Assembly: GCA_023664865.1 (NCBI GenBank)
Contig: JAMPEU010000015.1
Coordinates: 1-64,000 of the forward strand
Direction: 5' to 3'
DNA: 64,000 bases
DNA from: Butyrivibrio sp.
GTDB taxonomy: Bacteria; Bacillota; Clostridia; Lachnospirales; Lachnospiraceae
Shown in pieces: positions 45,406 through 63,008 of this stretch. The translations under genes were made by a program, and so were the position numbers. The notes beneath the pieces are model-generated. The model made no database searches and was not told the origin of the DNA. It saw only the letters and a list, made by a program, of their open reading frames with translations. Numbering within the stretch: the stretch's first letter is position 1; the number at the start of each line of letters is the position of its first letter.

Positions 45406-46602
45406 ATGGACTATATTTCTTTTTGTAAAAATTATTTTTCAGTAACCCAGATTCCCGTAAGCTTGCTGCTTAAGAACAAACCTCTGTATTCTTCCTTAGG
45501 CGAATTGCTTGATTCCGAATATAAGAACACCCATGAAATTTTTTGGGATTTCCCCTATGAATATAACAACCCCGTTTTCTGCCGCTACTCCCCGGATATT
45601 GAATACGGCTGCGTCCATGTGGAGAATACTGATTACCGCGTAATCTTAGGTCCTTCCTTCGGCGTACCTGTCACAGAACAGCTTATCCAAACCTATATGC
45701 ACGAAAATGCAATCCCTCTTGAATATAAAGAAGCCGTAACTGAATTTTTATGCGCTATTCCCTGCATCAGCCATCAGCAGTTCTCAAGGCATCTTGCCCT
45801 AGTCTACCAGAGCCTTAACCAAAAAGATATACAACTGGATGACCTATTTGCCTGGGAAACAAATGCCACCCGAAAACGCACATCTGAGCAGTTGCTTAAG
45901 CGGATTGACAATCTGGAAAATAATAACCTGCACAATACATGGGGCTATGAACAGGAGCTTTATTCCTTTATCAAAAATGGTGATGTCCGCAAACTGGAAG
46001 ATTTTCTGGCATCTTACCCTAAGTCTCCAAATGAAGGAAAGCTTGCAAACACGCCGCTGCGCCATGCCAAAAATCTCTTTATCCTAAATGCTGCAAAAAT
46101 AGCTGTCTTAAGCGCCATTCCCGCCGGTATTGATATTGAAAAAACATATCACCTGACCGACCTTTATATACAAGAATGCGAACAACAGCTTACCATCGAA
46201 GGCGTCAAATCCCTTCAGCTTTCTATGGTCAGGGACTTCTGCACTCAGGCTGGGGAAGCCCATATTCCCGACGGCATTTCTGCTGAAACCTACCAGTGTA
46301 TTAATTATATCCGCAGCCACACTAATTCACCTATAAGCATAAGCAGTGTAGCACAGCATGTTCATCGCAGTAATTCTTATGTCCTAAAACTATTTAAAAA
46401 AGAACTGGGCATCAATATGGGTTCTTTTATCACCAGATGCAAACTGGAGGAAGCAAAAAGCCTGCTAACCTATAGTGAAAAAAGTCTGGCTGAAATCAGC
46501 AGTTATCTGTGCTTCTCCAGCCAGTCTTATTTTCAAAATGTGTTCAAAAAGAAATACGGTATGACTCCCCTGCAATACCGAAAGGAACACCAAAAAATCT
46601 GA
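45406..46602 (+). CDS. AraC-family transcriptional regulator of the carbohydrate locus
   Basis: The 398-residue protein has an N-terminal ligand region of about 290 residues unlike classical cupin-type AraC sensors (PVSLLLKNKPLYSSLGELL...CVHVENTDYRVILGPSFG, similar in style to YSIRK/GGDEF-like clostridial regulators). The C-terminal DNA-binding domain has two helix-turn-helix units: ISISSVAQHVHRSNSYVLKL and SLAEISSYLCFSSQSYFQNV, followed by YGMTPLQYRKEH. It is the only gene of the sugar locus on the plus strand; its stop (46602) directly abuts the stop of the convergent permease gene (46603). Codons for the second helix-turn-helix contain an inverted repeat that reads as a terminator on the minus strand. 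It probably activates the sugar operons through ATTACAATAT boxes (inference). Confidence 0.9.
   Translation: MDYISFCKNYFSVTQIPVSLLLKNKPLYSSLGELLDSEYKNTHEIFWDFPYEYNNPVFCRYSPDIEYGCVHVENTDYRVILGPSFGVPVTEQLIQTYMHENAIPLEYKEAVTEFLCAIPCISHQQFSRHLALVYQSLNQKDIQLDDLFAWETNATRKRTSEQLLKRIDNLENNNLHNTWGYEQELYSFIKNGDVRKLEDFLASYPKSPNEGKLANTPLRHAKNLFILNAAKIAVLSAIPAGIDIEKTYHLTDLYIQECEQQLTIEGVKSLQLSMVRDFCTQAGEAHIPDGISAETYQCINYIRSHTNSPISISSVAQHVHRSNSYVLKLFKKELGINMGSFITRCKLEEAKSLLTYSEKSLAEISSYLCFSSQSYFQNVFKKKYGMTPLQYRKEHQKI
46478..46528 (-). terminator. Intrinsic terminator for the importer operon, embedded in araC coding DNA
   Basis: On the minus strand AAGACTGGCTG (46528-46518) pairs with CAGCCAGACTT (46492-46482) at 10 of 11 positions across a 25-base loop, directly followed by a run of six T (46483-46478). 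It lies 75 bases after the permease stop at 46603, with no other terminator between. The same DNA on the plus strand encodes the regulator's second helix-turn-helix. Confidence 0.65.
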
Positions 46603-47502
46603 TTATCCTTTTACACCGCCCATCTGTACGCCTGTAACAAAATACTTCTGAGCAAAAGGATATGCACACAAAATCGGCAGCGTACCAACAATTGTCATAC
46701 AATATTTAACAAGATTACCTACCATGTCTGCTGCCTGTTTAGCATCATCTCCTGATATATTGGTTGCAACCTTACTGGCGTCATTTTGAATCAGTATCTC
46801 CCTCATGAACAACTGCAAAGGCCAGTAATCCCTTGCCTTAGGCAGATAGATACTTGCAGAATACCATGAGTTCCACTGCATAATAACATTGAACATTACC
46901 ACTACTGCAATTGTTGCTTTTAACAATGGTGCAAGGATTCGGAACAGTATCACCAGCGGACCTGCCCCATCCAACTTGGCTGACTCTTCATAGGAATCCG
47001 GCAACTGTTCAAAAGCAGATTTCATCATCATAATGTAAAAAGCATTCAGCACTCCGGGAACTATAACCGCCCATCTTGTATTAATCATGCCAAGGCTCCT
47101 GACTACCATGTAACTCGGAATCAAACCACCGTAAAACATCATAGTGAACATAATCATAATCGCCAAAGGACCTTTTAATTTAAAATTCTTACGGCTAAGG
47201 AGAAAACCACCAATCAGTGTACCGATTGCCATGATAATAGTAGTAATCAAAACATAAAAAATAGTGTTAGCATAGCCGGACATAATACTTTTGTTATTCA
47301 AAACCAGCTTATATCCTTCAAACGTTATGTCACCTAATGGCTTTAACAACAGCCCGCTCGAACCCATTAAAAGTCTTGGGTTGCTGATTGAAGCCATGAC
47401 CACATGCCAGATTGGAATAATACATATAAAACTGAATAAAGCCAAAAATCCATAATTTACAATATTAAAAATAATACGGCTCGGACTCGATTTTTCAACC
47501 AT
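46603..47502 (-). CDS. ABC sugar importer permease (LplC/YtcP type, CUT1)
   Basis: A 299-residue permease with six helices (NYGFLALFSFICIIPIWHVV first). The EAA coupling loop reads ESAKLDGAGPLVILFRILAP. The C-terminus QKYFVTGVQMGGVKG is the hallmark of LplC/YtcP-type permeases for oligosaccharides. The gene begins 12 bases after the upstream permease stop, with AAGGGGG overlapping that stop. No ATP-binding gene follows, so the importer presumably uses a shared MsmK-type ATPase encoded elsewhere. Confidence 0.93.
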   Translation of the reverse strand: MVEKSSPSRIIFNIVNYGFLALFSFICIIPIWHVVMASISNPRLLMGSSGLLLKPLGDITFEGYKLVLNNKSIMSGYANTIFYVLITTIIMAIGTLIGGFLLSRKNFKLKGPLAIMIMFTMMFYGGLIPSYMVVRSLGMINTRWAVIVPGVLNAFYIMMMKSAFEQLPDSYEESAKLDGAGPLVILFRILAPLLKATIAVVVMFNVIMQWNSWYSASIYLPKARDYWPLQLFMREILIQNDASKVATNISGDDAKQAADMVGNLVKYCMTIVGTLPILCAYPFAQKYFVTGVQMGGVKG

Positions 47503-50390: not shown

Positions 50391-52874
50391 TCAAATTTCT
50401 ATTTTCCCCGCTTTTTGCAGCATCATAAAAAGATTCAACACTCCGGCATCCAGTTTTTCATGTGTCAGGCGTCCTTCCTGCAATCCTTTAAGTATCTGTT
50501 CTATTACCGGCGGACCGCCGGGCATTATCACGTCATTTCCTGCCATAACCGCGTCTGCGCCGTCAACCACAATATCCATGTCGCCCCAATCAGTTACCAC
50601 CATGCCCTGATATCCCCACTCATTCCGCAGGATTGCCGTACATAGATCACTGTTCCCACCGGCAAAGGTACCGTTTATCTTATTGAATGATGTCATAAGG
50701 CAATATATATCAATGCCTTGAATGACCATCTGAAAAGGCTTTAAATACAGTTCTCTGGCAGCTCGTTCTGTAAGAATAGAATCTGCCGCGTCATAATTTC
50801 TCTTACTGCTCCCGCGCCGGAATGTCTCCTGTTCATTAGCCGCAAAATGTTTCGGACAGGCAAGTACTGGATTGTTTTCCTGCACTCCCTTGACAACAGC
50901 CATACCACAGATCCCCGCTAAGAACGGATCCTCTGAAAAATATTCAAAATTCCGCCCGCAAAGGGGATTCCGATGAAGATTTAACGCAGGTCCCAGCCAG
51001 ACATCAACCTTTTCCCTTTTACATTCATCACCAACGGCGCTGCCAAATTCATATAAAAGTTCTATATCAAAGCTGGCTGCTAAAAGCATCTGCGTAGGCC
51101 ATGCAGTACGCCCGATTCCCGCCGGTCCGTCTTTATACGATACAGAATGAATGCCCACGTCTAGAATTGCCGGTGAGACATATCCGTTCATGCCTACTTG
51201 ATGGTCATTTAGCGTAATTGGCATGCCTTCTTCATCAAACCATGTTTCAGGATCTTCATTGTCTTTAAATGCTGAAAATGCTGTTCCCGGACCATACCCC
51301 ACCAATAAACACGCTTTTTGCAATTCTGTAAGGGCGCCTGTCTTTTTTAATGCGCTTTCCTTAAATTGCCTACAATCAATTTGCACCTCTTTATTACATA
51401 ATTCTTCTTTGCCACATGTTTTCAGGACATCTTCTGCGCTTAAACAAATACGCCTTGCGCATGCTGCGCTATATGGTTCCCTATCAGCCCCCGACACATG
51501 CAGGAATGAAATTTTCCCCTGATTGCAGGCTCTTAAGTTAAGCCTGTTTTGGCAGCAGAATACTTTTATGTCGCTCCCTACCACTATATCAGCCGCCTTT
51601 TCAAAACTATGCGAAGAGTTACCTATTAAGATCGCATACCTTCCAGCTTCAATTATCCATGCCGCTTCCTGCTCACTGTAACAGGCAAGCTCCCGCCATG
51701 GAAGAAAAATATAAACTTCCTGCTGCCTGGCGGGTTCAAGCAGACATGTCTTCCTAATTCCTTTTAACTCCTTTTTTGCATGTTCGCTTCTGGTGCCATG
51801 TGTGGAAATGTAAAGCTGTATGACTTCTTTTCCGGGATAATCCCCTGTATTAGAAACAGAACTCAAAATCCCGATTCCGCCATCTTCCTTTCGCACGTTT
51901 ATTACACGAATTGCAAAGCTTGTATAGGAAAGGCCATAGCCAAAAGGATAAAGCGTATCCACGCCAAAACTGTCAAAATAGCGGTATCCCATGTAAATAT
52001 CTTCCCTGTATACCGTCACCGGACTAAGAATATGCCCTATACTTCCGTTTTCCACTGCTGGAAGCCCGTAGCTCTCATATGTCTTTATCTCTTCCGGCAA
52101 GTCTTTATTACATGAAAAATCTTCCGCCGTCGGATAATCCTGATACTTCCATGCAATCGTAACCGGCAGTTTCCCGGACGGATTTACCTTCCCGACAAGA
52201 ATCCCCGCCAATGCGTCTGCGCCCTCTTCACCCGGTATCCCGATAAACAGAATACTTTGTATCTGCGGATAATTTTTCGTCCAGCCTAAGTCTATTAGTC
52301 CGTTTGCATTCACAATCAGCACAATCCTGTCAAAGCACTGGCACGCCTGAGCGATCAAATCCTGTTCTGATACCGTCAATTCATAATCTCCTATCAGGCG
52401 GCGGTCACACTCTTCTCCGCCTGAATTCCGTGTAAGGACGCAAACCGCCGTTCCGGTCAGGAGTGATGCGCGGCGCAGCATATCGTTAGGAACCACATAT
52501 TCCTGAATAGGCGGATGATACTTCCCAAATATCTCATACATTAAGCCGCTGTTCACCAGTTCTTTTCCACGCGACCAGTCGATTTCACCTTCCTTAAATG
52601 CAGGCTCCTGCTGCATTTTGGATTGATAAAATGTTTCCAATTCACGAAGCGGAAAAATACCGCATTTTTTACATGCTTCCAAAATAGAGCGCACTTTTTG
52701 GCTGCCCGCAGAACCGGAACCATTTCCGGAGTAAATCATATCAAGCTGCCCCCTGCCCAAAAACGCCACGCTGCTCCCACTTTGTAAGGGAAGAAGGTTT
52801 CTCTCATTTTTTAATAGGATAATTGATTCTTCCGCCAGCTTTCTTGCCAATTTTTTCCGCTTTATTTTATCCAT
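50391..52874 (-). CDS. Glycoside hydrolase family 3 enzyme with swapped domain order
   Basis: In this 827-residue protein the usual C-terminal half comes first. Residues about 1-270 are the alpha/beta sandwich (EESIILLKNERNLLPL, IPGEEGADALAGILVGKVNP). Residues about 300-410 are the fibronectin-III-like domain (YGLSYTSFAIRV). The TIM barrel with the nucleophile lies at the end (about 515-827): WLGPALNLHRNPLCGRNFEY, KHFAANEQETFRR, and Asp762 in YQGMVVTDWGDMD. Such inverted GH3 beta-glucosidases are known from Ruminococcus and Butyrivibrio. There is no signal peptide. It lies 21 bases after the upstream hydrolase gene and shares its promoter. The ribosome site is weak. Confidence 0.92.
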   Translation of the reverse strand: MDKIKRKKLARKLAEESIILLKNERNLLPLQSGSSVAFLGRGQLDMIYSGNGSGSAGSQKVRSILEACKKCGIFPLRELETFYQSKMQQEPAFKEGEIDWSRGKELVNSGLMYEIFGKYHPPIQEYVVPNDMLRRASLLTGTAVCVLTRNSGGEECDRRLIGDYELTVSEQDLIAQACQCFDRIVLIVNANGLIDLGWTKNYPQIQSILFIGIPGEEGADALAGILVGKVNPSGKLPVTIAWKYQDYPTAEDFSCNKDLPEEIKTYESYGLPAVENGSIGHILSPVTVYREDIYMGYRYFDSFGVDTLYPFGYGLSYTSFAIRVINVRKEDGGIGILSSVSNTGDYPGKEVIQLYISTHGTRSEHAKKELKGIRKTCLLEPARQQEVYIFLPWRELACYSEQEAAWIIEAGRYAILIGNSSHSFEKAADIVVGSDIKVFCCQNRLNLRACNQGKISFLHVSGADREPYSAACARRICLSAEDVLKTCGKEELCNKEVQIDCRQFKESALKKTGALTELQKACLLVGYGPGTAFSAFKDNEDPETWFDEEGMPITLNDHQVGMNGYVSPAILDVGIHSVSYKDGPAGIGRTAWPTQMLLAASFDIELLYEFGSAVGDECKREKVDVWLGPALNLHRNPLCGRNFEYFSEDPFLAGICGMAVVKGVQENNPVLACPKHFAANEQETFRRGSSKRNYDAADSILTERAARELYLKPFQMVIQGIDIYCLMTSFNKINGTFAGGNSDLCTAILRNEWGYQGMVVTDWGDMDIVVDGADAVMAGNDVIMPGGPPVIEQILKGLQEGRLTHEKLDAGVLNLFMMLQKAGKIEI

Positions 52875-52895: not shown

Positions 52896-55331
52896 TTAAC
52901 TAATTACCAGATGGAACATAATTCCTTTTGTCTCCTTAAGTTCAAATAAAACGACATCTTTGTCAGTTATTCCTTCCAAAGTCTCAATCACTTCTCCTAC
53001 CGGATTTAATACTTCCAGACTGGCTTTTTTAGCCTTTACTTTCAGCGTTCCTTCAATGGTATTTGCATAAAGTTTTCCCTTTATTGACACATTGGTCAAG
53101 GTTATCCCCATCATCTGCTCCCCTGCTTCATAGGTGGTTTCGTCGCAGCCTGTCTCACCCATAGCCGTTAAAATAAATTCAGTCGCCGTATTAAGCGGTT
53201 CCGCATTTTTAGCCATCACAGACACAGACATTCGCTCATTTTGGATATTAAGGCTGATTTTATCCGTAAGCTGTATCTCATCTGTCGGCGCGCCGGAAAA
53301 ATATCCGCAATACGACGTATTTAGCGCAAATTGCTTCTGATCCGGATCAAAACATATCTCGCCTGTATCGGATACTAGCCTGCCGTCTACATAACCTGCT
53401 GTCTCGCCCCACAGCCCCCACGATTTAAAAGCTTTATCCAAAACTTTCGCATATTCCGTGTAATTGCCTGTGCCGGCAAGACTGCTTATGTCTTTGATTA
53501 CAAGCTGCTGTGCGCCCTGATAAACGCCGTCCTCTATTTCCTTTGCTCCTTCGGCTGCCAGCGCAAGACGCTTCTTATCTTCCGACTCCCTGAACGCATC
53601 CCTGTACTTCGACCATGCGTAATATACGCCGTGCTTTGCCTCGCTTAAATCCCCTCCGTTGAAAAAGCCTGCATTGATAGCAGCGTCGCCATCGCCGCGG
53701 TACTTGGAACCACCGTCGATAAAGACATTCCTAAGCGATGAAATATACGGTATAAACGTATGATTCATAGCCTGCCAGTTTGGAAGCGTCTTAAGGTCTT
53801 CCTGCGTATAAACAATATCAATCTTATTTTTTGCCGTCTGTACCATTCCTTTTAAGAACATGGATGCCATAAATCCCCACTGGCATGCAACTGCCGGATC
53901 GTTATAAGCATCAAACACATTGAAAATCTGATCTGCCGGCTGGTCGTCCCAGTTCTCCGAAGTCTGATAATTATATAAAATCAGACCGTCCCAATCATTT
54001 AAACACGCGTATGCGATTGTATGTACAAAAGCAGTCGAATGGAACGGGTGCAAACCATATTCATTCCACTCCGTAATCATAAACGGTTTTTTATCTACAA
54101 CAGCTTCCGACGCCATAGAAAGAAGAGTCGTGGCAATGCTTCCTGCCCCTGTCTGCAAGGTCAGAGGATTGACACTGACATACTCCGTCGGACCGGCAAC
54201 AGTAAATGTCGTGCCATGGAACGGCAAAATCGGATGATTGAAATAAACATTATTCTCCATGATATCGCCATCCGTATGTCCATACACATCCGCCGCCCCG
54301 CCAAGCAGATTGCTTGTTGCAATCGGAACTCTGACGCCAAGTGAAATCAGGAAATTCTTAAATCTCCTGTAAAACCTGCGGTTATTCGCAATGCCGAATT
54401 CCATAAAATCCGCATATCTTGCCGGGGAAGGCATCCAGTCGTTTCCTTTCCAGTCGCCATTCGGATCATTGACCGGCTGCACGAATCCTCCCTGAACCCT
54501 GCGCACAGTATTCTTTGTCGGATCTTCATCATCGCCCAGCGCGCATACGCCGTCTACTGTCCACGCCTCTTTCAGTCTCTCCCTTGTGCCATATTTATTC
54601 AAAAGAAAGGCGTTAAACTTCTTAACAACCTCTTCCTCATACGGAATAAGCTCAGGATTCCCCTGCACTTCCCCTGTTCCTTTGATTGCCGAATCTTCAT
54701 TGTTAATCTGGACTACCACAACCGCCGGATCATCGACAAGCGCAAGACCTGTATAAGGATTGACATGTGTCAACATCTTACGTGCATAATCCATCTGCAG
54801 TTGTATCAAACGTTCATTTATCATCGTGAACAGTTTCACGCACTCTTGGAAATAACCGGGATAATCCAGTCCATCTCCGGGAATCATACGTCTTGCCACC
54901 ATCAAATCAACGTGCAGATAAATTCCTTTTTCCTTCAGCTTCGCCGCAAAATAGTCAAAACGATCCAGCCCTTCTTTATTAAATTCTATGCTGGAACCAC
55001 TTTCATAATCTAACAGTGGAGCTTCCTTGGTCTGTGACCAACTGCAAGGTTCTTCGCCAATCGGTGCATCAGCGGCATGCAGGCGTACAATATTTACGCC
55101 CATTGAGGCAAATCTTTCCGCCATTTTATCAGCAGTTTCATGCGTCGGCGTTGCCGACCTTGTCGCCATGCAGAAACCAAGAAATCTGGCTCTTGTACCG
55201 TCTTCAAAATAAAGATGACCGTTTCGTTCCTTCACAAACCCGTGTTTGCCAGCCGGTGCATCCAAAAGCCATGAATAATCCAGTACCCCTTTATTTGCTT
55301 CCGCCTTATGAATCCTAATATTTTGTTTCAT
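52896..55331 (-). CDS. Intracellular glycoside hydrolase of clan GH-A type (GH5/GH2-like barrel)
   Basis: The 811-residue protein lacks a signal peptide. The first about 480 residues look like a clan GH-A barrel: FEDGTRARFLGFCMATRSAT at the entrance, MGVNIVRLHAAD, a probable acid/base Glu after VVVVQINNED, and a probable nucleophile Glu in PFMITEWNEYGLHPF. The remainder is beta-rich (TEFILTAMGETG, ASLEVLNPVGEVIETLEG), resembling accessory sandwich domains. I cannot place it in a specific GH family; GH5-, GH39- or GH2-related groups are possible, so the substrate is open. AAGGAGGAG precedes the ATG. A candidate operator lies about 58 bases upstream of the start. Confidence 0.75.
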   Translation of the reverse strand: MKQNIRIHKAEANKGVLDYSWLLDAPAGKHGFVKERNGHLYFEDGTRARFLGFCMATRSATPTHETADKMAERFASMGVNIVRLHAADAPIGEEPCSWSQTKEAPLLDYESGSSIEFNKEGLDRFDYFAAKLKEKGIYLHVDLMVARRMIPGDGLDYPGYFQECVKLFTMINERLIQLQMDYARKMLTHVNPYTGLALVDDPAVVVVQINNEDSAIKGTGEVQGNPELIPYEEEVVKKFNAFLLNKYGTRERLKEAWTVDGVCALGDDEDPTKNTVRRVQGGFVQPVNDPNGDWKGNDWMPSPARYADFMEFGIANNRRFYRRFKNFLISLGVRVPIATSNLLGGAADVYGHTDGDIMENNVYFNHPILPFHGTTFTVAGPTEYVSVNPLTLQTGAGSIATTLLSMASEAVVDKKPFMITEWNEYGLHPFHSTAFVHTIAYACLNDWDGLILYNYQTSENWDDQPADQIFNVFDAYNDPAVACQWGFMASMFLKGMVQTAKNKIDIVYTQEDLKTLPNWQAMNHTFIPYISSLRNVFIDGGSKYRGDGDAAINAGFFNGGDLSEAKHGVYYAWSKYRDAFRESEDKKRLALAAEGAKEIEDGVYQGAQQLVIKDISSLAGTGNYTEYAKVLDKAFKSWGLWGETAGYVDGRLVSDTGEICFDPDQKQFALNTSYCGYFSGAPTDEIQLTDKISLNIQNERMSVSVMAKNAEPLNTATEFILTAMGETGCDETTYEAGEQMMGITLTNVSIKGKLYANTIEGTLKVKAKKASLEVLNPVGEVIETLEGITDKDVVLFELKETKGIMFHLVIS

Positions 55332-55433: not shown

Positions 55434-57737
55434 CTATTGCAAAGTTACACATACTTCATGCCTCTTACCATCTCGGAAGTCAGGAATCACATTTCCATCT
55501 ATCTTAGCGTTATCTACAGTAAGCGAATACTCCCCGCCGCCCTTATGATGCGGATTGCGGATCACAATATGATACGCTGCCCCGCGGAACTGTCGCGTAA
55601 TCTCTGCTGCTTCCCATTCCTTCGGAATACATGGTTCAACTTTAAGTCCGTTATAATCCCTCTTCACACCAAGTATTCCTTCCACCATACAGCGCAGGGA
55701 CCATGCCGATGTGCCGGTCGTCCACGACTGGTATGATTTTCCATAATATTTAGGATGCGTTGCATAACAGTTTGTAAATACATAAGGTTCCGCACCGGAG
55801 CGTTCTGAAGGGTTCTTATCACTGTCCGGCATAATCTTTTTTAATGTGCGGATTGCGTCCTGCGCACGCCCAAGCTTACAGTCCGCAAGCAGCTTAAAGG
55901 CGGAAGCATGGCAGTAGACGCCGCCATTTTCAAACAATCCGGGCAGCATGCCGGACATCCTTCCTGTTTCGGGAAGATACTCATCATACGGCGGCATATT
56001 AAGCGGAAACCCGAAGTCCTGCTCCATACTGTCAATTGCCGCCTCCACCTGCCCAAGCCTTCCTTCCGGTGCCACATCTCCAAGAATTGCCCATATCTGT
56101 GCATTCAGGTAAATTTTACTGCCCTTGCTGTCTTTACTTCCGATTTTTCCGTCTTTAGTCAGCGCACGGGCATACCATTCACCGTCCCACGCATATTCAT
56201 TAATTGCCGTTTTCAAAATCCCATACTGCTCCTTCATGTATGCGGCATACTCAGCGTCCCCGGCAGCTTCCATCAGATTAGATAATTCTAAAAATCCCAG
56301 ACACGCCTGCTCAGAAAGCATGACGGACTCTGCTTCTAAGTCCGTCGTAATATTTAATGCGTCATTCCAGTCGGCAAAATAAATCCTAATTAGCCCATTT
56401 CTCCCTTTGTCTGCAAGAAGGCATGAAACGGCAGCCTGCACATGTTCCAGTACAGTTCCTTCTCCCCCATCCTGCCATTCAAGCTCCCGGCTCAGAATAG
56501 AAAAGTCCCCGGTTTCTTTGATAAGGGCACAGACCGCCCATATAATCCAGAACGGCTGATCAGAATAACGTGTATCGTCGTACGGATACCATGTCAACAC
56601 AGTATGCCCATCTTTAAATTGATGGCGCAGGCATTCCAGTATTTCAGCTTTTGCCTTTTCCGGTCTAAAATTTAACAAGGCGACTGCGATTTGAAGATTA
56701 TCACGCACTCCCTTTTTCCCGACTATACAGAAATCCACCTGTTTTTTAATCCATGAATTTAACTGCACGCCCAATTTTTCATCCGGTATATGTAGAGAAA
56801 GGGCATTATATTTTTGTAAAACCGCGTCCTTTGTCCGCTGATATTCCTTATCAAAAGCTTCTTTATTTATGTATCTTCCAACAGTCTCATATGCTTCCTC
56901 TTTTGACTCGCAAACGCCAAACGCCAGATAAATCTCTTTTTCCTCACCCGGTTCAAGCGTTAGCCTATACTGCAGCACGCCTCCCGGAATAAAGAGCGCT
57001 GCCTCAGAACCCGTACAATCCTTCCCCTCCGCTACAATCTTTGGCCGTACAAACAACGCCACCGGCGAAGTGTCAAGGCGCGTCTGCGTTTGTGTAGGAC
57101 CGCAAAAAGCCGTCAGATCCCCATCATAAGCAAACGCCTTTTCCGACGATGCCAGAAAGCCATTGTACCGCTTATGCGGGGCAAAGGGATGACTCGATTT
57201 ACAGAATATGCCATTCAGCTTATCATCAAAACCTGTTTCAAGGCAGCGGTACATCTCATAGTAGCGTGGATACGAAAATCCTTCCAGTTCAAAGGAAACA
57301 GCCGCAAAAATGCTGATTGTCCGGCTTCTTGTATCTTCATTGCGCACCGTCAGCCTCCACATTTCATGGAAAGCAGCCTGTGGGACAAAAATCTGCCAGT
57401 CAGAGCTTATTTTGCCTTTTCCTGTTTTAATCGTTGAATCCCATATACTGTGCCTGCACTCATAGCTGTCTACCGGCTGGTCAGACGGTCCCTTGCCGAT
57501 ATTCCAGAATGCTCTGCTCTCTTCATCCCTAATATAGATGAAACGAGCGTCTCCCTGATTAATACGGCACATATTCGCCTGCTCGTCAATATAATAACTG
57601 CGTCCCTGCCCTGTCTGGGCAATCTGAGCACAATATCCGTTTTCATTCCACAGATAGTTATACCAGAAACGCGGCGTATTGGGATTTGTGATCACGCATG
57701 TATTCCCATCATCTGAAAAATGATATAGCCCACTCAT
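55434..57737 (-). CDS. GH94 family glycoside phosphorylase (cellobiose-phosphorylase-like)
   Basis: The 767 residues follow the GH94 plan: N-terminal beta-sandwich with CVITNPNTPRFWYNYLWNENG, helical linker (about 275-310), and (alpha/alpha)6 barrel with the catalytic acid in RIYFADWNDALN, plus NGGVYCHASAFKLLA and the jelly-roll end. GH94 enzymes phosphorolyse beta-linked disaccharides or oligosaccharides to sugar-1-phosphate without ATP. It is related to but clearly divergent from cellobiose phosphorylase, so the linkage specificity (beta-1,4, beta-1,3, beta-1,2 or cellobionate) is unknown. AGGAGGTAAG precedes the ATG. It is the third gene of the symporter operon. Confidence 0.88.
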   Translation of the reverse strand: MSGLYHFSDDGNTCVITNPNTPRFWYNYLWNENGYCAQIAQTGQGRSYYIDEQANMCRINQGDARFIYIRDEESRAFWNIGKGPSDQPVDSYECRHSIWDSTIKTGKGKISSDWQIFVPQAAFHEMWRLTVRNEDTRSRTISIFAAVSFELEGFSYPRYYEMYRCLETGFDDKLNGIFCKSSHPFAPHKRYNGFLASSEKAFAYDGDLTAFCGPTQTQTRLDTSPVALFVRPKIVAEGKDCTGSEAALFIPGGVLQYRLTLEPGEEKEIYLAFGVCESKEEAYETVGRYINKEAFDKEYQRTKDAVLQKYNALSLHIPDEKLGVQLNSWIKKQVDFCIVGKKGVRDNLQIAVALLNFRPEKAKAEILECLRHQFKDGHTVLTWYPYDDTRYSDQPFWIIWAVCALIKETGDFSILSRELEWQDGGEGTVLEHVQAAVSCLLADKGRNGLIRIYFADWNDALNITTDLEAESVMLSEQACLGFLELSNLMEAAGDAEYAAYMKEQYGILKTAINEYAWDGEWYARALTKDGKIGSKDSKGSKIYLNAQIWAILGDVAPEGRLGQVEAAIDSMEQDFGFPLNMPPYDEYLPETGRMSGMLPGLFENGGVYCHASAFKLLADCKLGRAQDAIRTLKKIMPDSDKNPSERSGAEPYVFTNCYATHPKYYGKSYQSWTTGTSAWSLRCMVEGILGVKRDYNGLKVEPCIPKEWEAAEITRQFRGAAYHIVIRNPHHKGGGEYSLTVDNAKIDGNVIPDFRDGKRHEVCVTLQ

Positions 57738-57781
57738 AAAATCTTACCTCCTATTCGGATATCCTTATCAAGAAACGCCCC

Positions 57782-58672
57782 CTAATCAGCAGGAAAACAA
57801 AGCGCTAATTTAGCAAACAAATCTCCAAGCACCAGTGATGCGTTCATCTTATGATATACGCGGATACAACGGTATCCTGTGTTATGAATATAAGTCATGT
57901 CATCGTTAAATTCGGGCGCTTCCTGCATTGTATACGCATAAATATCTTGATGTAAAAGTGCGCCTACCGTACAGTTATCGCCAAGACACCATGTTTCGCC
58001 CGATGTCCAATGGGCGTTCTTTGAATCATTAAATTCAACAAGCTGTTCAAACAGATATCGTCCTATATTCCCATATGGCCTGACTTTCTGCTCCAGCTCT
58101 GCGATGCCAACTGCCATCTGCGCTACCACATCGGCAGGAATCTGCCAAATATCCAACTTGGAACTCATAACAATATTGGCAGCTAAGATATCGTTGCTTA
58201 AGTTAAATTCCGTCCCGCCATCAGGATACTGCCCACCGCCATTCCAAATTGCAGTGACACGTCCTTCAATTTCCGGGTGTTTTAGCAATGCACACGCCAT
58301 ATCGGTGATAGGTCCCATAAAAAGAACATACAGCGGTCGGGAATCGTCTAAAAGCGCCTCGCGGACAATTAAGTCCGCGCCCTCTGAATACTCATAATCC
58401 GTTTTAGAGTTAATCGCACATTCAGCGCCATGATAAATATCTGTATCAGTTCCCATGTACTTATTTATGCGTATACATTCCTCATAGCTGTCAAGCATTG
58501 AATGTTCAGAATGAAAATTTCCAAAATGCGCCGCAATGATTCCACGCACATCAAATTTCTCTGTCAAAAGTGCATGTACGATTGCATACTGGTCGTCTGC
58601 TTCATTTTTGGCATCTGTATCAATAATGACACGGACTTTCTTATGCTCTGGAACATGATAATGGTATTTCAT
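57782..58672 (-). CDS. Nucleoside-hydrolase-like (DUF1593-type) protein
   Basis: From the ATG at 58672 the protein has 296 residues. The N-terminal motif VRVIIDTDAKNEADDQYAI matches the calcium-binding Asp cluster (DTDxxNEADD) of the inosine-uridine hydrolase fold, followed by MGPITDMACAL and IWNGGGQYPDGGTEFNLSND, which in the family binds ribose. In carbohydrate loci related DUF1593 proteins are thought to act on glycosides rather than nucleosides. The start lies one base after the symporter stop (TAAgATG), so it is translationally coupled. The longer open frame to 58717 overlaps the symporter and lacks a better ribosome site. Confidence 0.8.
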   Translation of the reverse strand: MKYHYHVPEHKKVRVIIDTDAKNEADDQYAIVHALLTEKFDVRGIIAAHFGNFHSEHSMLDSYEECIRINKYMGTDTDIYHGAECAINSKTDYEYSEGADLIVREALLDDSRPLYVLFMGPITDMACALLKHPEIEGRVTAIWNGGGQYPDGGTEFNLSNDILAANIVMSSKLDIWQIPADVVAQMAVGIAELEQKVRPYGNIGRYLFEQLVEFNDSKNAHWTSGETWCLGDNCTVGALLHQDIYAYTMQEAPEFNDDMTYIHNTGYRCIRVYHKMNASLVLGDLFAKLALCFPAD

Positions 58673-58673
58673 C

Positions 58674-60383
58674 TTATTTTGCCCCTTTAGCTTCCTTTTT
58701 CTTTTTCTTAGCCTCAACTTTTGCTATGTATTTAGCATTCTCTGTATCAAAATCCAAGCCTTTCTTACGGCAGCGTTCTTTTAAGTCAGCGATACGGTTC
58801 TCTTCATATTCCCTCTCTGCCTGTTCTCTTTCACGACGCTCAAGTTCTTCGGGTTCAACCCACTCTTCGCCGCGGGCAAGCACAGCTTCTTTACGACGGC
58901 GAGCCAGCTCTGTATTAATCTCAGGCAGATGTTTCTCCACGTCCATAAACGGTAAAAGAACCAGATATGCGACCGCCAGAATAATATCAAATAAATAGAA
59001 GGCAAGAGTCATAAAACGAATTACTTCCGCACTTGGCGTTACGCCTACCACATCGACAAAACCCAGTTTCAATATAGAAGCTTCAAAGCCGCCTGCAAAC
59101 GGCGCGTAGATTCCTGCCTGAATCGCCGTAATAATCGAAACGCCTAACAATCCTTCCAGACGCAGCCCCGATTTAAACTCCACACTGTCAAAGGCAAAGC
59201 ATAGCAATGTCGCAGTAACATAGGCATTAGGCAGCATTCCCGTCTGCCTTAAGAAACCTGCAACCATAGCAAGCGTAACGTTGCTTGGAAACAGCCAGCC
59301 CATAATGCTTCCTACCAACGCCATAGCATAGCCCGCCATAGAAACATTTCTAATTCCGAATTTCTTTGCCAGCGGATAAATCGCAATCGCGCCCAAGCCT
59401 AACGGTATGCCTGTAATCACCTGATAAAGGGTAAACATCAAAGGATTCTGGTCGCCGCCCAATAAAAATTTAACGTAAAAATACTGGACATTTCCGCCTT
59501 TAAAATTATCTACAATGCCGCCGACTGTCATAAGTATCATGAATATAACGTAATATTTATTGGTAAGCAGCGCTTTCATCTGGTCACGCAGCGGAATGCT
59601 GTTTTCTTTATCCAAACCGACTTCCTGCGCCACATCTTCAATAATTCTCTCTTTAGTATAAAAATACTCAATCAAAAGCAGCGGAACCGCAATAATGGAA
59701 AGCGCCACTAAGAGCTTCGCGTATCCGGTAATGTCATGCTCCAGCCACATTGGCAGCACTACCATGTTAATCAACATGCCGATAATCATACCGGAAATCA
59801 AGGTCCACGACATCTGCCTGATGAATTTCACCCTAGTCTTTTCTACCGGATCACGGGTAATCAGTGAACAAACAGTATCCCTGAACAGATAAAAGTACGA
59901 AGAACCCACAGTATGATAACAAATAAGCAATATAAAGAAGTAATACCAGTAGGATTCACCTAATGTCGTACCGGGGAATAAGAAAATCAATCCGCCGATT
60001 ATAATTGAAACAAAGCCAAATATCAGATGCCACGGGCGCATCCTTCCCTGACGTGATTTGGTGTGCTGCATAAGCCAGCCGTTTAACAGTCCTGTAAATA
60101 TCGCCAGAATTTTGGCAACTGTCATGATTACTTCATAGTATCCGCCCATTTTCTGTATCATTGCGACGTTTTCTGTCCCATACATGGCTCCTGTCTGCTG
60201 GGTAAAGAACTTCTCCACCAACGCCGCAATCGTATTGACGACGAAAATAAGCCCCAATGGTCCTACAAGATGCCCTAAAATTAATTCCTTCTTTGACACA
60301 GCGCGGGTTTTAACTTTAGAATCCATAACAGGCTTATCAAATAACCCGCCGCTTAACAATGTAATCGTTTTCTTTTCTGTCAT
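58674..60383 (-). CDS. GPH-type (glycoside-pentoside-hexuronide) cation symporter
   Basis: The 569-residue protein has about 12 membrane helices and the GPH features GHLVGPLGLIFVVNTIAALV, KSRQGRMRPWHLIFGF (cytoplasmic loop with basic residues), and later FKGGNVQYFYVKFLLGG. The C-terminal about 90 residues form a soluble, charged, coiled-coil-like tail ending in a Lys-rich block, longer than in most GPH transporters. It heads the operon symporter / nucleoside-hydrolase-like / GH94, giving the locus a second uptake route besides the ABC importer. It starts 52 bases after a weak promoter-like pair, with two ATTACAATAT boxes further upstream. Confidence 0.9.
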   Translation of the reverse strand: MTEKKTITLLSGGLFDKPVMDSKVKTRAVSKKELILGHLVGPLGLIFVVNTIAALVEKFFTQQTGAMYGTENVAMIQKMGGYYEVIMTVAKILAIFTGLLNGWLMQHTKSRQGRMRPWHLIFGFVSIIIGGLIFLFPGTTLGESYWYYFFILLICYHTVGSSYFYLFRDTVCSLITRDPVEKTRVKFIRQMSWTLISGMIIGMLINMVVLPMWLEHDITGYAKLLVALSIIAVPLLLIEYFYTKERIIEDVAQEVGLDKENSIPLRDQMKALLTNKYYVIFMILMTVGGIVDNFKGGNVQYFYVKFLLGGDQNPLMFTLYQVITGIPLGLGAIAIYPLAKKFGIRNVSMAGYAMALVGSIMGWLFPSNVTLAMVAGFLRQTGMLPNAYVTATLLCFAFDSVEFKSGLRLEGLLGVSIITAIQAGIYAPFAGGFEASILKLGFVDVVGVTPSAEVIRFMTLAFYLFDIILAVAYLVLLPFMDVEKHLPEINTELARRRKEAVLARGEEWVEPEELERREREQAEREYEENRIADLKERCRKKGLDFDTENAKYIAKVEAKKKKKEAKGAK

Positions 60384-60434
60384 ACATTTCCTCCTTTAAG
60401 GTTTATTTCATTCCGCTTTTCCATGACAATTAAA

Positions 60435-60463
60435 ATAATCGTTCTATCATGTATTTATAACAA
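60435..60463 (-). promoter_or_regulatory. Weak promoter of the symporter operon
   Basis: On the minus strand TTGTTA (60463-60458), 17-base spacer, GATTAT (60440-60435). Both hexamers match only 4 of 6, which fits an activator-dependent promoter. Confidence 0.4.
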
Positions 60464-60486
60464 CTATAAATCTTATTTTCGTTTTT

Positions 60487-60516
60487 ATATTGTAATTTTT
60501 GGGATAATATTGTAAT
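60487..60516 (-). promoter_or_regulatory. Two tandem candidate AraC operators, symporter operon
   Basis: ATTACAATAT occurs at 60516-60507 and again at 60496-60487 on the minus strand: direct repeats exactly 20 bases apart (two helical turns), upstream of the weak promoter. The rest of 60384-60669 is AT-rich, without a gene, and ends in the araC-derived terminator. Confidence 0.6.
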
Positions 60517-60597
60517 ATTCTATATATATTTAGATATGTATTAGATATATATTGTATTTTTATAAATATTCGATAGAGAAAGTTTTTAGAGAACTCC

Positions 60598-60666
60598 CTT
60601 ATACAGTAAAAAAGCCTGTCTGAAATCAGCAATTATTTATGCTTTTCCAGTCAGGCTTTTTCAAAA
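60598..60666 (-). terminator. Terminator of the GH3 gene made from a decayed araC coding fragment
   Basis: On the minus strand AAAAAGCCTGACTG pairs with CAGACAGGCTTTTT (one mismatch in 14, loop 25 bases) plus a T-run, nine bases after the GH3 stop. On the plus strand the same DNA aligns with the araC helix-turn-helix codons at 46471-46535: TGAAATCAGC is identical, and GCTTTTCCAG and AATTATTTAT match GCTTCTCCAG and AGTTATCTGT closely. Its frame TCT-GAA-ATC reads SEISNYLCFSSQ but is broken by single-base deletions on both sides, so it is no longer coding. Confidence 0.75.
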
Positions 60667-60669
60667 AGT

Positions 60670-62967
60670 CTAATTTCCAAGCATCTGATTCAATGTCCCC
60701 ATCAGCTCTTCAATCTTAGAAGCCATCTCTGCACCAGCAAAGCTTGCTATAGATTTAAGCGGCATTCCCGTCATCATTGCTTCCATCATTTCTGTACCGG
60801 TACCAAGCGCCTCCGCCGCGCTTTCAGCATCTACGGCATCTGCTCCCTGAGGCTGCATTGACTGCTGCATACTCTTCATCATCTCGCCAACGACAGGCGC
60901 AGTCACAGGATGCGCCAGAAGCTGCCCTATGGTAGTAGCTCCGTTTACATACAGCGGCGGAAGTTTCTTCGTTTCAAACGTAAGTTCACCACGCAAAATT
61001 ATTTCATCGCACGCATGTCCTACCAATACCTCATATTTTCCGGAAGGCGCATACCAATCTCCAAGTCCTTCATGATAGAATGACAGATCTCTCGCCTTCA
61101 GTATGAACTCCACGGTCTTCGTCTCCTTTGGTGCAAGCGCGACTTTGGCAAATCCTTTCAGTTCTTTTACAGGCCTGCCCGGCGTGCCGTTTTTATCGCT
61201 GACATAGAGCTGTACTACTTCCTTGCCCGCCATGTTTCCGACATTCTTCACATCGACCGTTATCTTTACACAGTTATCGTCATTCAACGCCTCCGTAGGC
61301 ATTTTTAAGTTACTGTACTCATAAGTTGTGTAGGACAAGCCATGTCCAAACGCCCAGCGCACAGGCATTTTCTTAGTATCGTAATAACGATATCCCACAT
61401 AGACGCCCTCCGCATAATCCACGTTATCGCCGTCTCCGGGGAAATTCAGATAACTCGGATTATCCTCAAGATGCAGCGGGAAAGTCTCGGCAAGACGCCC
61501 TGAAGGATTTGCCTCACCGTAAAGAATCTTGTCTGTGGCTTCTCCTACGCCCTGACCGCCAAGATACATCTCGAGAACCGCCGCTGCTTTGTCCGCCCAC
61601 GGAGTCTCGACCGGGCTTCCATTGTGCAATACAACCACAGTATTCGGCTGTACCTGTGCTACCGCTTCAATCAGTTTATTCTGGCATGCCGGAAGCTTCA
61701 TGTCTTTTCTGTCGTATCCTTCCGATTCAATCACATCGGGAAGTCCTGCAAAAATCACGGCTGTTTCCGCCTCTTTCGCCGCCTGCACTGCCGCTTTTAA
61801 TTCTTCCTCATTCTCCTCGTCCTTATCAAACGGAAAGCCTTTTACATAGGTTACTGCACGGTTTTTCGCTTTCGCGCTCTCCAATGCTGAAGACACCTTG
61901 CTTGAATTGATATGGCTCGAACCGCCGCCCTGATAGCGCGGTTTGGCAGCATACTCGCCGATATAGACAACCTTAGCATCCGCTGTTAACGGAAGCACGC
62001 CGTTATTCTCTAAGAGGACTGCGCTCTCTGTCTCGATTTTAACTGCTTTTTCATGGTCCGCATCTCTATCAAATACTGCTTCCGCATGACGGTTATCAAT
62101 ATAAGAAAATACAACTTTTAAAATACGTTCCACAGCAATGTCAAGAAGAGCCTCGTCCAGACTTCCGTCCTTCACTGCCGCAATAATCTTAGCGTCATTA
62201 AATCCACCGCTGCCCGGCATTTCCAGATCAAGTCCCGCCTCAATGCCTTTCACACGGTCTGAAACCGCGCCCCAGTCTGTCATTACATAGCCTTCAAAGC
62301 CCCACTCGTCCCTTAAGATTTCCGTCAAAAGGTGGCGGTTTTCAGAAGCATAAACCCCATTAATCTTATTGTAACTGCACATAATCGTCTTAGGCTGCGC
62401 CTCTTTGACTGCCATCTCAAAAGCAGGCAGATAAATTTCCCGCAATGTCCGCTCAGACATATTGGAAGAACAGCTCATGCGGTTATACTCCTGATTGTTT
62501 GCCGCATAATGCTTTATGCTTGTGCCTACGCCACGGCTCTGCACGCCGTCTATATAAGCCGCCGCCATTTTACCGGCAAGATACGGATCTTCGGACATAT
62601 ATTCAAAGTTACGCCCACATAAAGGGCTTCTCTTGATATTAACCGCCGGTCCCAAGAGTACGCTTATATCTTCCGCCTGACATTCCTCGCCCAGCGTCTC
62701 CCCCATCTCATGAATAAGTTCCGTATCGAAACTGGATGTCACGGCACACGCTGCCGGAAAGCATACTGCGACAATGCTTTCTCCCATTCCGAGATGGTCT
62801 GCCGTCTCCGGCTGTTTACGCAGTCCATGAGGTCCGTCTGATACCATTACTGCCGGAATTCCCAGCCGTTCTACGCTTTTCAGGTGCCAGAAATCCTCGC
62901 CTGAGCACATTCCTGCTTTTTCCTCAAGCGTCATTTGTGAAATGATTTGTTTGATGTCTCTTTCCAT
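60670..62967 (-). CDS. Glycoside hydrolase family 3 beta-glucosidase-type enzyme with C-terminal helical extension
   Basis: The 765-residue enzyme has the normal order: TIM barrel (MTLEEKAGMCSGEDFW...), nucleophile Asp231 in GYVMTDWGAVSDR, substrate-site ISVLLGPAVNIKRSPLCGRN and KHYAANNQE; alpha/beta sandwich (about 305-500); fibronectin-III-like domain (about 560-665). A last segment of about 100 residues (VNGATTIGQLLAHPVTAPVV, MKSMQQSMQ, AAEALGTGTEMMEAMMTGMP) is helical, Met/Ala-rich and not part of the catalytic fold. There is no signal peptide. A -35-like TTGACA and a palindrome lie upstream, and the gene is followed by the araC-derived terminator. Confidence 0.93.
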   Translation of the reverse strand: MERDIKQIISQMTLEEKAGMCSGEDFWHLKSVERLGIPAVMVSDGPHGLRKQPETADHLGMGESIVAVCFPAACAVTSSFDTELIHEMGETLGEECQAEDISVLLGPAVNIKRSPLCGRNFEYMSEDPYLAGKMAAAYIDGVQSRGVGTSIKHYAANNQEYNRMSCSSNMSERTLREIYLPAFEMAVKEAQPKTIMCSYNKINGVYASENRHLLTEILRDEWGFEGYVMTDWGAVSDRVKGIEAGLDLEMPGSGGFNDAKIIAAVKDGSLDEALLDIAVERILKVVFSYIDNRHAEAVFDRDADHEKAVKIETESAVLLENNGVLPLTADAKVVYIGEYAAKPRYQGGGSSHINSSKVSSALESAKAKNRAVTYVKGFPFDKDEENEEELKAAVQAAKEAETAVIFAGLPDVIESEGYDRKDMKLPACQNKLIEAVAQVQPNTVVVLHNGSPVETPWADKAAAVLEMYLGGQGVGEATDKILYGEANPSGRLAETFPLHLEDNPSYLNFPGDGDNVDYAEGVYVGYRYYDTKKMPVRWAFGHGLSYTTYEYSNLKMPTEALNDDNCVKITVDVKNVGNMAGKEVVQLYVSDKNGTPGRPVKELKGFAKVALAPKETKTVEFILKARDLSFYHEGLGDWYAPSGKYEVLVGHACDEIILRGELTFETKKLPPLYVNGATTIGQLLAHPVTAPVVGEMMKSMQQSMQPQGADAVDAESAAEALGTGTEMMEAMMTGMPLKSIASFAGAEMASKIEELMGTLNQMLGN

Positions 62968-63008
62968 AGCATTTACCCTTTCCTGCTTTTTGATATTATC
63001 TATCTATA

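Follow-up and report, generated by a model that had tools for sequence, protein, structure and literature searches.

The hairpin directly behind the GH3 gene of the window (the whole stretch of 64,000 nucleotides of Butyrivibrio sp. that was analysed) is probably the intrinsic transcription terminator of that gene, made of DNA that descends from the antisense of the second helix-turn-helix (HTH) codons of an AraC-type regulator gene. In intact araC genes the antisense hairpin would end the transcripts of the facing operon. A rearrangement would have removed the body of araC together with its last codons, and the hairpin would have remained since the upstream gene required an end. As it left GH3 on the minus strand, RNA polymerase would then make a 57-nt hairpin followed by a U run and release. 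The origins of terminators are rarely visible in sequence, and related genomes here allow the coding sequence, the antisense hairpin and the gene-less descendants to be lined up, which makes it possible to test both how a gene gives rise to a terminator and how a protein code conflicts with a stop signal. This would be a case, visible with unusual clarity, of a stop signal that lay hidden within a gene and outlived it. The features concerned are collected in Table 1.

Table 1 Features of the window around the GH3 element and its araC counterpart, with the gene-less copies of the hairpin.
Feature	Position or place	Strand	Basis or remark
araC-derived piece, antisense of second-HTH codons	60602..60669	-	frame lost outside core; homology to 46471-46541
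Hairpin of the likely intrinsic terminator of GH3	60607..60663	-	-26.9 kcal/mol, z -6.97; model R1 79 bits at 60604-60669, this copy belonged to the R1 training set
T run, six T on the minus strand, 3' foot of hairpin	60608..60613	-	sequence
GH3 gene, transcript proposed to end at the hairpin	60670..62967	-	Pfam Glyco_hydro_3, Glyco_hydro_3_C, Fn3-like
MFS_2 sugar transporter gene, next unit on the GH3 strand past a 286-bp gap	58674..60383	-	Pfam
Intact araC gene, subfamily from which the element derives	45406..46602	+	Pfam HTH_18, HTH_AraC
Homologous antisense hairpin in intact araC, proposed to end the facing permease operon	46471..46541	-	-24.7 kcal/mol, z -6.14; codon-shuffle z -3.46
ABC permease gene facing araC, zero gap	46603..47502	-	Pfam BPD_transp_1
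Gene-less copies, locus 1	behind GH3		window genome and G020
Gene-less copies, locus 2	behind transporter		G328:C17 and G016:C181, equal gene order
Gene-less copy, locus 3	behind ABC permease end		G328:C35

Sequence comparison leaves almost no doubt that the element descends from araC coding DNA. Its plus strand can be aligned to the intact araC gene over the second-HTH codons, at 83% identity (E 1.3e-11, blastn within its own genome), which bears out the alignment reported in a preliminary description of this DNA. The local alignment score is 74, and the best other stretch of the window outside that araC region reaches 28. In tblastn with proteins of the araC subfamily the element was matched at E of about 1e-6 across 24-32 residues, and no further araC stretch appeared in 60200-60800 at E<=0.01 among the matches listed (the best eight per target). 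Across 77 genomes of the genus, the G020 locus aside, its closest match is an intact araC gene in G318 (87% over 60 bases, E 9.3e-14). The homology stops at the GH3 stop codon. The core of the element, KSLSEISNYLCFSSQA, aligns without indels and its reading frame is open, while gaps of 1 base on the left and 2 bases on the right flank it; the earlier statement that single-base deletions had broken the plus-strand frame is thus roughly right outside the core. AraC-family genes (Pfam HTH_18, HTH_AraC) are the source of the sequence, from which the element differs in that only about 16 codons are kept in frame and a regulator cannot be encoded. A repeat element, a better match to which had been named as a refutation, is rejected: the genome itself holds a single gene-less copy, and the other strong matches are araC genes. 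A known RNA family is likewise rejected as its identity, since a search of Rfam brought no family to its gathering score and returned only the S15 leader (17 bits against 39.5, E 0.21).

On the minus strand the hairpin begins 6 nt past the GH3 stop and is slightly stronger than its counterpart in the intact gene (-26.9 kcal/mol, z -6.97, vs -24.7 kcal/mol, z -6.14), in agreement with the earlier claim that it exceeds the latter; the fold of the plus strand of the element is weaker (-20.7 kcal/mol). T residues had been placed nine bases after the GH3 stop, but the T run, at 60613-60608, is found at the hairpin's far end, where its six T are partly paired with an A run in the fold. A stable hairpin with a G+C-rich stem close behind the gene and a T run after the stem are the marks of an intrinsic terminator, and this is the likely role predicted for the hairpin at GH3. 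A strict consensus scan for terminators (unbroken stem, loop of 3-8, T run) gave no site in 59800-61400, probably because its pattern disallows the A.A mismatch and the inner bulge that the stem contains. Leaving gaps uncounted, 61 of 65 positions of the element are conserved against 210 of 222 in the remainder of its intergenic region, and an excess of conservation over the flank is seen via fewer gaps only, not via substitutions.

The same hairpin recurs without its gene. Searching the 77 genus genomes with the covariance model R1 at E<1e-4 gave 31 sites within araC genes (20 classified directly and 11 through overlap with known araC places) and five outside; three extra rows were the reverse strand of gene-less copies. 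The training set of R1 included four of the five gene-less copies, which leaves the copy in G016 (E 3.1e-11) as the sole independent one. The five represent three loci in four genomes, and each stands directly behind a gene in terminating orientation, the transporter at the second locus being a weak match to the MFS_2 protein of the window (23% identity). All five fold with z between -5.1 and -7.4 and finish in a run of at least four T on the strand of the gene directly upstream. One outer-stem G-C pair is changed to A-U in the G016 copy, the sole pair altered on both sides among the copies, and covariation among them is weak, as much being reached in 105 of 500 shuffles. A scan of the genome contigs with an exact pattern, possibly excluding the window genome, found six matches in five stretches, three gene-less and three in araC by the author's assignment; judged by length, the contigs concerned had all been covered before. 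In a protein search of ten genomes for further araC pieces, the matches listed were filled by whole AraC genes.

Retention of the hairpin through selection would fit this recurrence, the common orientation and the conservation of the stem in intact genes (below). G020, whose GH3 is 93% identical, matches the window in the element, in the end of GH3 and in gene order. Only these two of 30 GH3 loci (strands set by hand) carry the element; within 300 nt of the stop nothing scores above 24 at the other 28 (56-89% identity), compared with 144 in the window itself and 119 in G020. Within the loci sampled, the element is a feature of the lineage that comprises the window and G020. Neither a GH3 gene facing an araC of this kind nor an intact orthologue behind GH3 was found in the 30 loci, and the tblastn matches listed hold no araC remnants alongside the element. 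Of the earlier proposal that an ancestral convergent araC was lost here while its antisense terminator was kept, the descent and a probable terminator role stand; a convergent araC may have decayed in place at GH3. Between the window and G020, the AT-rich stretch at 60550-60600 contains about 31 gap positions.

Alternatively, the element could be a recombination scar, in which module joining fused the GH3 end to an araC piece from elsewhere, perhaps creating a terminator, without a convergent araC ever having stood beside GH3 and with nothing kept by selection. We consider this possible, if somewhat doubtful. It would account for the absence of the element from 28 of 30 GH3 loci and for a homology that ends at the GH3 stop, and it matches the identity profile between the window and G020 over 57000-63000, where the GH3 bins are 85-93% identical and most of the listed bins beyond GH3 93-100%. 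A scar would not lead one to expect three loci that are all in terminating orientation and all equipped with T runs, nor that a facing gene is the common arrangement in this araC subfamily (27 of 41, see below).

The third gene-less locus bears on the same question. In G016:C127, from another species, an intact araC faces an intact permease with 17 nt between them. The permease end in G328:C35 has identical last residues, and the bare hairpin comes next. On our reading of this pair, the sequences are consistent with the araC end having been lost between two short stretches rich in T. The permease of G328:C35 is, however, truncated to some 100 residues, and past an insert, at a distance of 1.1 kb, there is an intact araC; the locus thus illustrates a possible origin of the bare hairpin and not its retention by selection, and a bare copy that arose beside an insert is also what a recombination scar would look like. 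The decayed region of G328:C35 (L111 / L202) holds, besides the inserted stretch, a second araC remnant beside a GH3 gene. This second araC is related to L135 and L139, both genes with a weak hairpin; what remains of it is a different piece, from which the hairpin codons have been lost.

Within intact genes, the hairpin was compared with what the codons alone would give. From 55 araC loci, 41 passed a motif filter and 14 were dropped, and each gene was shuffled 300 times with codons redrawn from its own usage. The antisense hairpin beats these shuffles at p<=0.01 in 10 of the 41 genes, with z down to -5.45. A tree of 39 genes, two of the 41 being too short to be placed, puts eight of the ten in a single clade of 20 members (support 100/99); of the remaining two strong-hairpin genes, L140 lies outside the clade and L131 is one of the two short genes. 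Codon identity at shared residues was then taken from 11 representatives of the clade, one or two per close group and unselected for the hairpin, with stem and loop codons assigned by the author from the fold. It amounts to 0.712 in the stem (408/573), 0.414 in the loop (53/128) and 0.452 in the remaining gene (4457/9851); a stem value of 0.754 was set aside as circular, its members having been chosen for strong hairpins. Among 379 windows of 15 codons in the clade, the top one begins one codon ahead of the stem and the window at the stem start ranks eighth. For 14 members of other clades the corresponding identities are 0.478, 0.364 and 0.429; in rank, the same window comes 126th of 381, yet a window starting at +1 comes third. 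The conservation of stem codons suggests that in the clade DNA or RNA is constrained over and above the protein. Perhaps, then, the second-HTH codons of one AraC clade double as an antisense terminator for the facing operon, with synonymous sites under selection, and after loss of the regulator the terminator survives as a fossil that still ends the operon; we put this forward tentatively, as a proposition with nearly as much for it as against it.

The arrangement of neighboring genes gives this proposition a mixed reception. Since no gap separates araC from the permease in the window, a terminator of the permease would have to sit within araC. A gene on the opposite strand lies within 100 nt of the araC stop in 27 of the 41 loci by the author's count and in 29 by script; the former, with labels set by hand, omits two doubtful small ORFs (L122, L127) and retains two uncertain ones (L083, L094). 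The facing genes include ABC permeases and GH94 and GH1 enzymes. A dependence of hairpin strength on the present facing gene was not borne out, strong hairpins being found in 7 of 27 convergent loci and 3 of 14 others (8 of 29 and 2 of 12 by the script count). In L072, L122 and L140 an intact araC has a strong antisense hairpin and no clear facing gene nearby. Six araC genes (L074, L096 and L123-L126) face GH94 at distances of 1-23 nt and offer no good antisense terminator, only weak candidates, in their last 400 nt; the transcripts of GH94 and the facing araC may overlap. Strong hairpins apart from convergent genes, together with the weak GH94-facing candidates, are the main evidence against a simple account. 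Ordinary hairpins occur at the extreme araC end in some members of other clades (L077, L079, L084, L085).

Strong hairpins where no gene faces araC could also mean that the conserved sequence is an operator, that is a protein-binding site, or a structure of the sense araC mRNA, the terminator look being secondary. The sense strand does fold well too, and two of the three gene-less loci are upstream of another gene. We nevertheless hold this to be unlikely: each gene-less copy ends in its T run on the strand of the gene just upstream, the antisense of the window copy folds better than the sense, and at the third gene-less locus no gene start on the same strand lies downstream.

Beyond these sites the model also reaches generic terminators. 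Five weaker matches in the genus, at E 1e-3 to 6e-3, resemble ordinary terminators and lack an araC frame. Family-wide, R1 matched in 37 of 397 genomes (49 rows). Of the 28 new loci that were classified, 15 are intact AraC genes (13 by pattern and two by eye) and 13, with E from 5.5e-6 to 2.3e-3, are without an araC frame and resemble ordinary terminators. That the GH3 element and the araC hairpin are merely two ordinary terminator-like hairpins, alike by chance or convergence, is a reading that such generic matches invite (L157, L159, L160 and L161 among them) and that we reject as extremely improbable, as the match spans loop and inner stem at E 1e-11 to 1e-13 and none of 20,000 random hairpins of equal make-up scored 74 against the araC piece, the highest reaching 33.

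Ju, Li and Liu reportedly described bidirectional intrinsic terminators between convergent genes in 2019. Intrinsic (Rho-independent) terminators include bidirectional ones in that position, according to two papers (PMC7566282, PMC3027695). Like the terminators covered there, the GH3 element consists of a hairpin and a T run behind a stop codon with an A run ahead on the other side; unlike them, its sequence originates in regulator-coding DNA and, in relatives that are intact, sits inside the facing gene and not between genes. Convergent genes with overlapping 3' transcripts are treated in a review of excludons (PMC7154746). Here too the ends of convergent units share sequence, whereas at GH3 one partner would be gone and the stop signal alone left. 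By title or abstract, the open-licence literature yielded work on terminators of convergent genes and no paper on antisense terminators encoded in AraC genes.

Two further genes of the window deserve mention. GH3 enzymes with permuted domain order are already known, and a second GH3 enzyme at 50391-52874 has its domains reversed, with Glyco_hydro_3_C at 18-317, Fn3-like at 350-421 and Glyco_hydro_3 at 588-812. In the same gene row, 52896-55331 encodes an 811-residue protein that has no Pfam match at E<=0.001; its counterparts in G327 and G328 are 91-93% identical across the parts compared.
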